DNA from: Cheilinus undulatus
Lineage: Eukaryota; Chordata; Actinopteri; Labriformes; Labridae
DNA length: 64,000 bases
Direction of reading: 5' to 3'
Assembly: GCF_018320785.1 (NCBI RefSeq)
Contig: NW_024571694.1
Location: 81,197-145,196 of the forward strand
This document shows, in pieces, positions 31,301 through 33,973 of the stretch. Position numbers and translations under genes: made by a program. The notes beneath the pieces are model-generated. The model did no database searches and was not told the DNA's origin. It saw only the letters and a list, made by a program, of their open reading frames with translations. The number at the start of each line of letters is the position of its first letter. Position 1 is the first letter of the stretch.

Positions 31301-33973
31301 CTTGAAGATAATCATGATCTTATGAAGAAGATTGAAAACATTGTATGTGAGAAGGAGGGAAACTTCCTCACCTTCACTGAAGAGTCCACAAGACCAAAGT
31401 CTGAACTCAACAAACCAGCTTTAAACCTGGTTCTGTGTGGGAGAGAGGGATCCGGAAAGACTTCAGCAGCAAAGGTCATTTTAGGTCAGACAGGTCTTAA
31501 TCCAGTCTCCAGCTCATCAGAGTGTGTTAAATATCAGGGAGAGGTTTGTGGACGTTGGGTTTCCCTGGTGGAGCTTCCTGCCTTGTATGAAAAACCTCTG
31601 GAGGAAGCGATGGAGGAGTCACTCAGATCTGTCTCACTCTGTGATCCTGAAGGTGTCCACGCCTTCATCCTGGTCCTACCTGTGGGTCCACTCACTGATG
31701 AGGACAAGGGAGAGTTAGAGGCCATCCAGAACACATTTGGGTCTAAAGTCAATGATTTCACTATGATCCTGTTCATGTCAGAGTCAGATCCCAAAGATCC
31801 AGCTGTAGTTAACTTTGTAGAAAAAAGCAAGGAAATCACAGAAATCATTCAGAGCTTTGGAGGGAGATCTTTTGTTCTCAACATCAAGGACAACCAGCAG
31901 ATCCCAGAGCTGTTGCAGATGCTGGAAAAGATGACGACTGGAGAATCCAGATGCTTCACCAAAGACACATTCACTCAGTCTCAGATGGAGAAAATTGTCC
32001 GACTTCAAACTGAGCTGCAGGATGTGAAACAGAGGAGGGTGAGGGAAGCTGATAATGACACCCAGAGCAGAGAATGTCTCAGGATAGTTCTGATTGGAAG
32101 GACTGGCAGTGGAAAAAGTGCGACAGGAAACAACATTTTGGGAAAAGATTGTTTTTACTCTGATTCCAGCTCAAAGTCTGTGACCAAGGCTTGTGAAAAA
32201 GCAACTGGAGAGATTGATGGTCAGCCTGTGGTTGTGGTTGACACCCCCGATTTGTTTGACACAGCTCTGTCTGATGAGGATGTTCAGCAGGAGCTTGGGA
32301 AATGCATCAGCATGCTGGCTCCTGGACCTCATGTGTTCCTGCTAGTGCTGCAGATCGGCCGCTTCACTAAGGAGGAAAAAGACTCAGTGGAACTGATCCA
32401 AAAATATTTTGGAAAGCATGCAGCAGATTTCATCCTTGTTGTATTCACCAGAGGTGATGATCTCCGTCAGTCAACTGAGAGTTACTTAGAGGACTCTGAT
32501 GACGTATTGAAAAAACTGATCCACGACTGTGGAGGAAGATACCAGGTCTTCAATAACAAGAACCAGACAGACCGCACACAAGTCAGAGAGTTACTGACTA
32601 AAGCAAACAAAATGCTTGAAGACAATGGCGGCAGCTTCTACACATCTGATATGTTCCAAGAGGCTGAGGCGGCGATAGAGGAAGAAGTGGAGAGGATCCT
32701 GGAAGAAAAAGAAGAAGAAATGCAGAGACAGAAAGAGGAGCTTCAGAGAAAACATGAAGAAGAAATGGAAGAAATGAAGAAAAGAATGGAGAAACAGAGG
32801 AAAGAAAGTGAACAGCAGAGAGAGAAACAACTCAGAGAAATGGAGGGAAAAATCAACAAGGAGCGAGAAAAGAGGAAGAAAGAGCAGGAAAAGAGAGAAG
32901 AGGAGGACAGGAAGAGAAAAAGGCAGGATGAACTTAAACAGAAAGAGTGGGAGGACAAACTTGAAAACCTGGAGAGAAAAATAAAGTTAGAATCAGAGGA
33001 AAAAGAAACCATTGATAAAAAGTGGGAACAGAGCAGAAAAGAGCTGAGAAAACAGCAAGAGGACTGGGAGAGGGAAAGAACTGAATGGTGGAGACAGAGA
33101 AGGCTTGAAAATGAGAAAATACGACATGAAGAACAGTTAAAAATTAAAAAGCTTCAAGAGGAGTATGATCAGGAAAGAGAAAAAGTTGAGAAAAAGAGAA
33201 GAGAGGACGACCAAAGACGAAGAGAACAGGAGGAGAAGGAGAGAAGAGAACTAGAGGAAAACTATAAGAAAAAAATGGAGGACATGAAGAAGAGGAATGA
33301 AGAGGAGGCCAGAAAACAAGCTGAAGAATTCAATGAGTTCAGAAAAAATTACGACAAAGACTATAATGAACTAGAAGAGAAACGCATGAAGGAAATGCGT
33401 AAATTGAAGAAAAAGCATGAGAGACAACTGTATGAGGAAGAGAGGAGACATAAGAAACAGTACAGGCTGTTACAAGAAGAAAGAGAGGATCTGAGGAAAA
33501 AGCATGAGCAAGAAATGAAAGAAAAGGAGGATCTGAAGCAAAAGCATGAGCAAGATATAAAAGAAAAGGAGGACCTGAGGAAAAAGCTGTGGAGGTATCA
33601 TGTTTTGCATATAAGTATATTACTAATATACTCACTTATTTATATATATACTACTACAGAGCTGTCCTTGGGTAACCTCTGATCAAGTTAGGTTTTGTTA
33701 GGTTTTGAGAAAGGATGTTGTGGATGTCCAAAGAGGGCAGTGTTTACTGACCAGTATGAGTGTTTAGTGTGATAAGTGGGGCCAAAACAATATCTGGACT
33801 CCTAACTGTTCAGTTTCAGGAGACTACGATGGAATAACAGGAAATGTTTTGTAAGAGACAAGCTGAAGAAAAAGCATGATGAAGGACTTAAAGAAAAAGA
33901 GGATCTGAAGAAAAAGCGTGAGCAAGAAATAAATGAACTTAGAAAAAATACCAAAAAATGTATCATCCTCTGA
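21027..33973 (+). CDS. GIMAP8-like GTPase with four AIG1 domains
   Basis: GIMAP (AIG1) proteins are septin-like GTPases of immune cells that act on intracellular membranes and lymphocyte survival. Exons: 21027-21125 (ATG at 21107), 22979-23032, 23524-24168, 24271-24321, 30867-33594, 33820-33973. All have AG/GT borders. The first four introns are all phase 1 and the fifth is phase 2. The spliced product is 1216 residues. AIG1 domain 1 spans about residues 28-210, domain 2 about 260-425, domain 3 about 442-630 and domain 4 about 661-855, followed by a Glu/Lys/Arg-rich coiled coil to the end. P-loop Lys is present only in domains 3 (GREGSGKT, 448-455) and 4 (GRTGSGKS, 667-674). Domain 4 also has DTPD. 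The protein ends CIIL. The first exon begins at a good acceptor, so a further untranslated exon probably lies upstream. The long multi-domain form resembles GIMAP8. The exact ortholog is uncertain because fish have many GIMAP paralogs. Confidence 0.85.
21107..21125 (+). CDS. GIMAP-like gene, first coding exon
   Basis: Codes MATAAE plus the first base of the next codon, followed by donor GTGAGT. The exon's 5' UTR begins after TCTTTACAG at 21026. The start is chosen because it is the first ATG in the exon and stays in phase with all later exons. Confidence 0.7.
21247..21437 (-). mobile_element. tRNA-derived SINE in the Tc1 inverted repeat
   Basis: On the minus strand it begins GGGGTGCGCCGGTGGTTGAG, has a tRNA-like B box (GGTTTGGGTCC) and ends in an A-rich tail. 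It is flanked by exact copies of TTTTTCCTGTGATTT (21232-21246 and 21438-21452). A second copy of the same family lies at 42869-43038. Confidence 0.9.
21640..22485 (+). pseudogene. Tc1-like transposase remnant
   Basis: Fragments include the N-terminal region near 21660-21790 ([19 protein letters not shown] reading) and the C-terminal open frame 22253-22483. The latter has [20 protein letters not shown] followed by [13 protein letters not shown], the block holding the last catalytic residues. Deletions and frameshifts occur between them, so it is inactive. Confidence 0.8.
22979..23032 (+). CDS. GIMAP-like gene, exon 2 (basic linker)
   Basis: Fifty-four bases between ATCATAG and GTGAGT, phase 1 at both ends. 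They code [18 protein letters not shown]. Its size and phase allow it to be skipped without breaking the frame. Confidence 0.65.
23111..23140. repeat. (AAT)n microsatellite
   Basis: Nine or so AAT units followed by AATG units, in GIMAP intron 2. Confidence 0.85.
23524..24168 (+). CDS. GIMAP-like gene, exon 3: AIG1 domain 1 (degenerate)
   Basis: It encodes a full AIG1-length domain: [20 protein letters not shown], then [10 protein letters not shown] (switch II/G3 region) and the AIG1 box [20 protein letters not shown]. In the P-loop the GK of GxxxxGKS is replaced by ER, so nucleotide binding is doubtful. Acceptor TTCAACAG and donor GTAAGT are both good. The ATG at the exon border is formed by joining A from exon 2 to TG here. 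Confidence 0.85.
24271..24321 (+). CDS. GIMAP-like gene, exon 4 (linker)
   Basis: Fifty-one bases between CTTTTCACAG and GTGAGT, phase 1 at both ends, coding [17 protein letters not shown]. It joins the first AIG1 domain to the long exon 5 in frame. Confidence 0.65.
25294..25548 (+). mobile_element. Short retroposed LINE 3' end with target duplication
   Basis: About 255 bases end in AAAATGAAAATAAAAAATTTG and a pure A tail (25532-25548). The flanks AAGATCCAGTAGAATA (about 25278-25293) and AAGATCCAGCAGAATA (about 25549-25564) differ at one base and are the target duplication. The LINE clade is not certain; the tail looks L1/Tx1-like. Confidence 0.75.
26500..27095. repeat. Dispersed repeat, copy 2
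   Basis: It shares subunits with 12.6-13.2 kb: AGCAACACTGAAAGCTT occurs twice here (about 26570 and 26780), each after GCAGTTTTGT(T/C)AGAA. The unique flank includes CAATCTATGGGAGCTGTCCC. The open frame 26820-27194 lies inside the repeat and is not taken as a gene. Confidence 0.5.
27592..28450 (-). pseudogene. Tc1-like transposase, truncated and frameshifted
   Basis: The N-terminus [20 protein letters not shown] is a frame with a helix-turn-helix region ([20 protein letters not shown]). A gap and another frame carry [19 protein letters not shown] sequence. The core reads [20 protein letters not shown] and [39 protein letters not shown] and ELDWPAQSP follow, where it ends before the DLNPIE block. 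It belongs to a different Tc1 subfamily from the other copies in the window. Confidence 0.85.
27592..28460 (-). mobile_element. Tc1-like element, 3'-truncated copy in GIMAP intron 4
   Basis: The minus strand carries a transposase from about 28450 to 27592, where it stops abruptly in the middle of the last catalytic block (WPAQSP and then unrelated sequence). No inverted repeats were found, so both ends have been lost. Confidence 0.8.
28668..29506. mobile_element. MITE with short inverted ends
   Basis: Left AAAGGGGCTTACAGACACAC and right (reverse complement TTTAGGGTGCTTTCACATTA) share AGGGxGCTTxCA at their ends. The inside has no transposase. It sits inside a larger AT-rich element (about 28600-30035) that has repeated TTAATCTAGATTAATCTAG motifs near its right end. 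Confidence 0.45.
30055..30400. repeat. Dispersed repeat, copy 3
   Basis: It shares CCAGTTTTATCAGAACATG, TTCATTAAAAGAAGAACAAA and GCTCTGATTGGCCCATAAAG with copies 1 and 2. The order of these blocks is the same in all three. Confidence 0.45.
30867..33594 (+). CDS. GIMAP-like gene, exon 5: AIG1 domains 2-4 and coiled coil
   Basis: The exon starts after TTGATTACAG. The open frame extends 13 bases further upstream, but no ATG is there. Domain 2 has a lost P-loop (GKSKAKQT in place of GxxxxGKS) and KTSD at G3. Domain 3 has an intact P-loop GREGSGKT but ELPA in place of DTPD. Domain 4 has [48 protein letters not shown] and TRGDD, so it is the most normal GTPase. From about 32680 the frame is a charged heptad-like coiled coil, with repeats such as [13 protein letters not shown] and [13 protein letters not shown]. 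Donor GAG|GTATCA at 33594-33600 is acceptable but not strong. Confidence 0.9.
33820..33973 (+). CDS. GIMAP-like gene, last exon with CIIL end
   Basis: Acceptor GTTCAGTTTCAG. Joined in phase 2 it reads through more coiled coil ([20 protein letters not shown]) to ..KNTKKCIIL and TGA at 33971-33973. The final Cys-Ile-Ile-Leu preceded by Lys-Lys fits a CaaX box of the geranylgeranyl type. That the sequence continues the same heptad pattern ([17 protein letters not shown]) as the end of exon 5 is strong support for the splice. Confidence 0.8.

Follow-up and report, generated by a model that had tools for sequence, protein, structure and literature searches.

Introduction

In the mammalian GIMAPs an AIG1 GTPase domain is followed by a coiled-coil, and the proteins either end in a transmembrane tail (GIMAP1, 2, 3 and 5) or have no anchor (GIMAP4, 6, 7 and 8). 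GIMAP8 also carries several AIG1 domains. To our knowledge, it is unsettled how the GIMAPs that have no transmembrane tail reach membranes. Here we describe a gene of the fish Cheilinus undulatus that has the same succession of AIG1 GTPase and coiled-coil, with several AIG1 domains and a stalk longer than in mammalian GIMAPs, and whose predicted product ends in a Leu-terminated CaaX box, CIIL. The gene lies in a stretch of 64,000 nucleotides (NCBI RefSeq assembly GCF_018320785.1, contig NW_024571694.1, positions 81,197 to 145,196 of the forward strand), hereafter the window, whose first letter is position 1 of the coordinates given below.

A lipid-anchor signal on GIMAPs appears to be new, although prenylation of an AIG1 protein is already known from a plant, Arabidopsis AIG1 being given as a prenylated protein in the available part of PMC6866125. 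In the excerpts available from other sources, mammalian GIMAPs are said to include no member with a known prenylation or palmitoylation motif (PMC3804274), GIMAP tails are described as transmembrane or hydrophobic and the word stem prenyl is absent (PMC8201404), and a paper on snail AIG proteins mentions neither prenyl nor CaaX (PMC7053062). The main text of a zebrafish Gbp4 paper does not mention CaaX or prenylation, and two Entamoeba papers naming both AIG1 and CAAX were set aside, as the excerpts at hand concern CAAX proteases and not boxes on AIG1. No report of prenylated animal GIMAPs was recognised in the open-access literature, surveyed mostly by title and beginning of the abstract, subscription papers lying outside this scope.

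Results

A CaaX box at the end of the window gene

The window gene probably encodes a GIMAP with four AIG1 domains, a charged stalk and a CIIL end, and belongs to a large set of CaaX-ended fish GIMAPs. Domain content, tail, box and recurrence of the box in paralogs are all read from the DNA sequence itself. The predicted last exon (exon C, 33820-33973, forward strand) ends in KNTKKCIIL and a stop codon and is identified by its homology to an upstream repeat and by a homologous CVIL end in a paralog (locus L013, see below). Given the splice between 33594 and 33820, the CIIL box occupies 33959-33970 on the same strand. With a GT at 33595 and an AG at 33818-33819, this join keeps the frame (phase 2) and leads to the stop at 33971-33973.

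Positions 33853-33937 of exon C match positions 33481-33565 of the preceding exon B in the same frame at 83.5% identity (E = 8e-20), and exon C continues in frame the 42-bp coding repeat of exon B. As a same-frame continuation of this 14-residue repeat, exon C is coding by descent. The alignment of exon C with the repeat scores 100; two sets of 500 codon shuffles peaked at 48 and 49, respectively, and the intron and the 3' untranslated region (UTR) score as background. An earlier note on this DNA had read the spliced C-terminus as KNTKKCIIL, with a Leu-ended CaaX box, and both the preserved frame and the homology of exon C confirm it. The same note took a heptad pattern running across the exon border as support for the splice. 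This support is weak, as little of the register persists across the border (the main hydrophobic heptad class reaches 6/10 over the final 70 residues of exon B but 3/8 in exon C, where another class reaches 3/7), and heptad continuity was dropped as proof of the splice. Two further signals were also discarded: mismatches between repeat copies by codon position (4, 3 and 7) are too few to read selection from a third-position bias, and a 9-mer shared at both stop codons (33676-33684 and 33967-33975) is attributable to chance (E = 0.85).

Given the splice, CIIL fits the type used by geranylgeranyltransferase I (GGTase-I, or GGT1), with Cys at position -4, an aliphatic a2 residue and Leu last. The residues preceding the Cys, RKNTKK, form a small or hydrophilic, lysine-rich linker when compared by eye with the description in the available part of PMC1175975, according to which Ser or Lys is preferred at -1 in GGT1 substrates and the stretch from -1 to -7 is richer in lysine. 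The linker fits this preference, since it has Lys at -1 and further lysines nearby. As far as the accessible portions of the sources go, CIIL is one of four boxes fully modified by human GGTase-I in humanised yeast (PMC11152559), it is the box of yeast Rho2 (PMC11304957), and KK-x-CIIL stands at the end of two rows in a G-gamma table (PMC9953545). Across the window, C[VIL][VIL]L stands ahead of 5 of 3988 six-frame stops, and lysines lie beside the Cys in the CIIL case only.

CaaX boxes recur among GIMAP tails of the genome

The genome (1.17 Gb, 46 contigs) was searched for AIG1, which gave at least 151 matches, a lower bound as the best candidates alone were scored. The frame following the domain was read at 70 of these at least 151 matches, namely all 61 of at least 146 bits outside the window and nine weaker ones. 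Nineteen of the tails came from 18 of 20 loci selected by relatedness or score (left out were the first-domain exon L011 and L028, whose frame is broken), and the other 51 were taken down the score list before the tails were known. The other 81 matches, among them the four of the window itself, upstream domains in multi-domain genes and matches that are weaker or fragmentary, stand outside the count. Since L079 ran off its stretch, 69 tails were obtained, of which 67 have at least 12 residues.

Cys is found at -4 in 18 of these 67 tails and in 0 to 3 at every other position from -1 to -12, although a binomial figure for this excess is not to be taken literally, as paralogs are not independent. 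All 18 match C-x-[IVL]-[LMQ]; when the last 25 residues are shuffled, such matches average 0.057 and never exceed 2 in 5000 rounds. The boxes end in Leu or Met (CSIL three times, CPIL, CTIL, CVVM three times, CSVM, CIVM and CTVM) or in Gln (CKVQ and CVIQ twice each, CVLQ, CNVQ and CSIQ), and the 18 boxed tails are open frames from domain to stop that involve no assumed splice. The count is conservative, since several of the 67 tails resemble reads into introns and not true ends; L012 and L013 were scored as boxless in it because their frames break earlier. CaaX boxes are thus very probably not a product of chance but a genuine feature of many GIMAPs in the genome of Cheilinus undulatus. The claim of the earlier note that a long GIMAP carries a genuine CaaX box of the GGTase-I type gains support from these 18 tails and from the CVIL end of L013.

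The two kinds of anchor are nearly mutually exclusive among the 69 tails: 17 have a CaaX box only, 16 a hydrophobic tail only (19-residue hydropathy of at least 1.6), one has both and 35 have neither. The sole tail with both belongs to locus L030 (a GIMAP at G000:C18:42211383-42211985) and combines a glycine-rich hydrophobic stretch with CNVQ. The coil of L020, read in three frames, showed no hidden box.

A quick tree of 40 domains, in which the window gene, L012 and L013 were counted as boxed, places boxes in both large groups, where they are clustered (none of 500 label shuffles needed as few changes). When these three are instead scored as boxless, the nearest row by identity is boxed for 14 of 18 boxed rows versus 7 of 22 others, two of the four exceptions being nearest to L012.

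The CaaX end is most likely ancestral and interrupted by a later insertion

The rows nearest to the window gene are L012 (C5:4.44 Mb), L009 (C43:8.5 kb), L010 (C43:58 kb) and L013 (C5:3.695 Mb). L012 (C5:4440000-4449900) is 97.3% identical over 5.67 kb, with identical intron and exon C, an intact box and a frame break in the coil; relative to L012, C43, the contig of the window, may be another haplotype or a recent duplicate. L013 has no insertion; its frame is broken by one base in an A-run, beyond which the coil continues intronless to KRKHEREIIELKEKYRSKCVIL and the stop (the CVIL end). The C5-cluster ends CSIL, CPIL and CKVQ can be aligned with this end, as can the spliced C-terminus of the window gene. 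Because the insertion-free L013 carries CVIL at the homologous place and aligns with the C5 cluster ends, the CaaX box is most likely the ancestral end of these genes and the insertion a later event.

The insertion (33588-33862, 275 nt) is common to the window gene, L012 and L009 and, among the window and loci L001-L100, was found only there (L007 being the same place as L009). It contains the predicted intron (33595-33819, forward strand, 225 nt), which is absent from L013 and which, if read through, leads to a stop at 33680-33682. As the insertion interrupts the ancestral CaaX end, the window gene must splice it out to keep its box.

The end of L010 lay beyond the sequence read. From about position 5398, L010 continues through L029 and L081 (G000:C43, about 59.9 to at least 70.9 kb) as an array of the 42-bp (14-residue coil) unit that spans at least about 11 kb, and a TAA within one of the units closes the frame of the array 879 residues past the last AIG1 domain.

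Alternative readings of the C-terminus

Several observations weigh against a CIIL-ended window gene and a conserved set of boxed relatives. The CIIL end hinges on the removal of a derived insertion that has a weak donor (33595: 2.9 bits, a score equalled or bettered by 16% of the GTs in the window, with no G at +5), and splice-site scores alone do not pick the pair 33595/33820, ten other donor/acceptor pairs scoring equal or higher. In the available part of PMC11304957, a yeast reporter screen lists CIIL in the de-enriched set, alongside other known geranylgeranylated boxes. The family evidence comes from one genome, in which the frame breaks in the coils of L012 and L013 may mean that some copies are decaying, or may be assembly errors. 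The tree needs at least eight gains or losses of the box, six of them forced by starred branches, with many forks open. In L046 (C8 cluster), compared with its close paralog L034, CVIQ was lost through small indels and the protein now ends in GCCG. L009, which has the insertion, lacks the G at donor -1 and lost its box when about 57 nt were deleted. The Cys at -4, whose presence in relatives the earlier note had proposed as a test, was checked in paralogs of the same genome: it is conserved in that it stands in 18 of the 67 tails and in the CVIL end of L013, and is lost in L009 and L046. Five pairs in which both members are boxed differ at 1 of 20 places in the last four residues (1 of 15 leaving out the Cys, p = 0.011) and at 57 of 150 in the preceding 30, a conservation that is overstated because the pairs were chosen for being both boxed; the nearest-row count given above is less biased, and the figure of 18 in 67 tails is independent of these pairs. 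Finally, the window gene and L009 are about equally alike in intron (96.0%), exon C (97.6%) and 3'UTR (93.6%), so that selection on exon C is not demonstrable.

It is possible, if rather unlikely, that the insertion stays unspliced, so that the protein ends at 33682 with a transmembrane-like hydrophobic tail resembling that of other GIMAPs, while exon C belongs to the 3'UTR and holds a relic of the ancestral CaaX end. Such a hydrophobic C-terminal segment is absent from the spliced form and would appear only if the insertion were retained. The read-through frames of the window gene and L009 both reach the same stop, with a hydropathy of 1.64 and 1.62, respectively; the weak donor is weaker still in L009, and the loss of the box there left the read-through frame unbroken. 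However, 96 of 1301 open ends of 29 codons in the window (7.4%) are equally hydrophobic, so such tails arise readily, and retention sits poorly with the strong acceptor of exon C (8.8 bits, top 1.4% of AGs), with a join that falls exactly in the ancestral frame and with a box that is intact in both the window gene and L012. With reservations, we favour the reading in which CIIL is the main end produced by the window gene. Production of both ends, intron retention switching one GIMAP between a lipid and a hydrophobic anchor, would accommodate two open frames, a weak donor beside a good acceptor and a family that has both kinds of anchor, but the hydrophobic read-through could be due to chance and we regard this switch as quite unlikely. 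Most improbable of all is that the CaaX end is itself a chance match without function: a lone case would carry little weight given the 5 such motifs before the 3988 window stops, and the box is missing from some paralogs, but 18 boxed tails against 0.06 expected, the homologous CVIL end of L013 and the clustering of boxes on the tree all speak against it.

Gene model and domains

The gene model comprises four predicted exons, all joined in phase, that encode 1181 residues with a single terminal stop. The candidate first coding exon (21107-21125, forward strand as for all parts of the gene, encoding MATAAE) is a prediction only; its phase 1 donor at 21126 (10.1 bits) is the top of three first-exon candidates in 19500-23450 and joins exon A in frame. 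Exon A (23524-24168; acceptor 8.9 bits, donor 10.7 bits, phase 1) encodes AIG1 domain 1, with a degenerate P-loop (GNSWSERSS; Pfam AIG1, E = 9.9e-27). Exon B (30867-33594; acceptor 6.7 bits) encodes domains 2 to 4 together with the greater part of the charged helical tail (Pfam AIG1 in three stretches, E = 2.6e-110). The individual E values for PF04548 (AIG1) in domains 1 to 4 are 9.9e-27, 6.9e-24, 3.8e-26 and 4.9e-67, every one above the curated cut-off. P-loops are intact in two domains and broken in two, domains 1 and 2 having no GxxxxGKS. Domain 4 (32075-32659) is a canonical GTPase with the P-loop GRTGSGKS, DTPD and a GRFT box (Pfam AIG1, E = 4.9e-67). It matches the GIMAP7 structure 3zjc (E = 7.5e-50) and aligns over its length with GIMAP7 and GIMAP4 structures, including QIGRFTKEE.

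The charged coiled-coil or helical tail, recognised from charge pairing and hydrophobic period, takes up about 310 residues within exon B (32660-33594) and 362 residues with exon C included. It has 207 opposite-charge i,i+3/i+4 pairs versus 150 +/- 9 in 1000 shuffles, and its hydrophobic period peaks at 99 degrees, a height reached by 0.6% of shuffles. Judged from these charge pairs and the amphipathic period, a coiled-coil lies beside the AIG1 domain. Together with the AIG1 domain, the intact P-loop and the conserved GRFT box of domain 4, this places the protein, on the evidence of its sequence, among the GIMAP/AIG1 GTPases. Near its end the tail contains the 42-bp (14-residue) tandem repeat (33477-33587; Tandem Repeats Finder, 2.6 copies, 86% matches). 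No relatives were found in viral contigs, prokaryote contigs or phage records, as expected for an animal gene. A possible polyadenylation signal, AATAAA, lies at 35026-35031 (forward strand), a weak indication among the 161 AATAAA of the window on both strands.

Remains of Tc1/Tc3-type transposases and reverse transcriptases surround the gene, at 6656-7222 and 39542-41267 on the forward strand and at 17076-17660 and 27575-28117 on the reverse strand, the last within the intron predicted to separate exon A from exon B. The window also encodes an LYR-motif (Complex1_LYR) protein at 56400-56798 (forward strand), presumably a succinate dehydrogenase assembly factor. The open frames 22246-22635 (reverse strand) and 63070-63306 (forward strand) are alike by eye and are probably copies of one dispersed repeat.

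Discussion

Splicing of the window copy, lipid attachment, location and function are inferred. GGTase-I would attach a geranylgeranyl group to the Cys of CIIL, after which Rce1 would remove IIL and ICMT would methylate the Cys. The lipid and the neighbouring lysines could then dock the far end of the stalk (about 360 residues) on a membrane, while the GTPase domains might dimerise or assemble at the opposite end, up to tens of nanometres off, forming a GTP-controlled tether or coat. A broader scenario, unlikely as it stands, is that fish GIMAPs are a largely prenylated system in which boxes ending in Leu, Met or Gln address different prenyltransferases and membranes, and in which the young insertion of the window gene, by being spliced or retained, toggles one protein between geranylgeranyl and hydrophobic anchoring and so captures the family in the act of swapping anchors.

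If true, a broad set of CaaX-boxed fish GIMAPs would offer a directly testable membrane anchor, and lipid and hydrophobic anchors would replace one another within the GIMAP family. The use of prenylation by immune GTPases would then extend to GIMAPs, in addition to GBPs and plant AIG1.

The interferon-induced GBPs, large immune GTPases, combine a helical tail with a CaaX box. They form a separate family: a Pfam scan of exon B gave AIG1, MMR_HSR1 and AAA_22 only and thus no GBP domain, and the fish gene carries four copies of an AIG1-type GTPase. The earlier suggestion that a prenylated long GIMAP joins the GIMAP and GBP families thus holds only in the sense that both would have converged on the same sort of anchor, and not in terms of shared domains. 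Rho GTPases and G-gamma subunits are small proteins that have neither an AIG1 domain nor a long stalk; nevertheless, yeast Rho2 and the two G-gamma rows, in the parts of the sources available, share the identical CIIL box with the fish GIMAP. Unlike the mammalian GIMAPs, for which the accessible text of PMC3804274 gives no lipidation motif, those of Cheilinus undulatus show recurrent CaaX ends. In this respect they can be set, by description, beside Arabidopsis AIG1/IAN8 (P54120), where, although plant and animal AIG1 likeness may be convergent (PMC7053062, in part), an AIG1-domain GTPase is given as prenylated (PMC6866125, in part).

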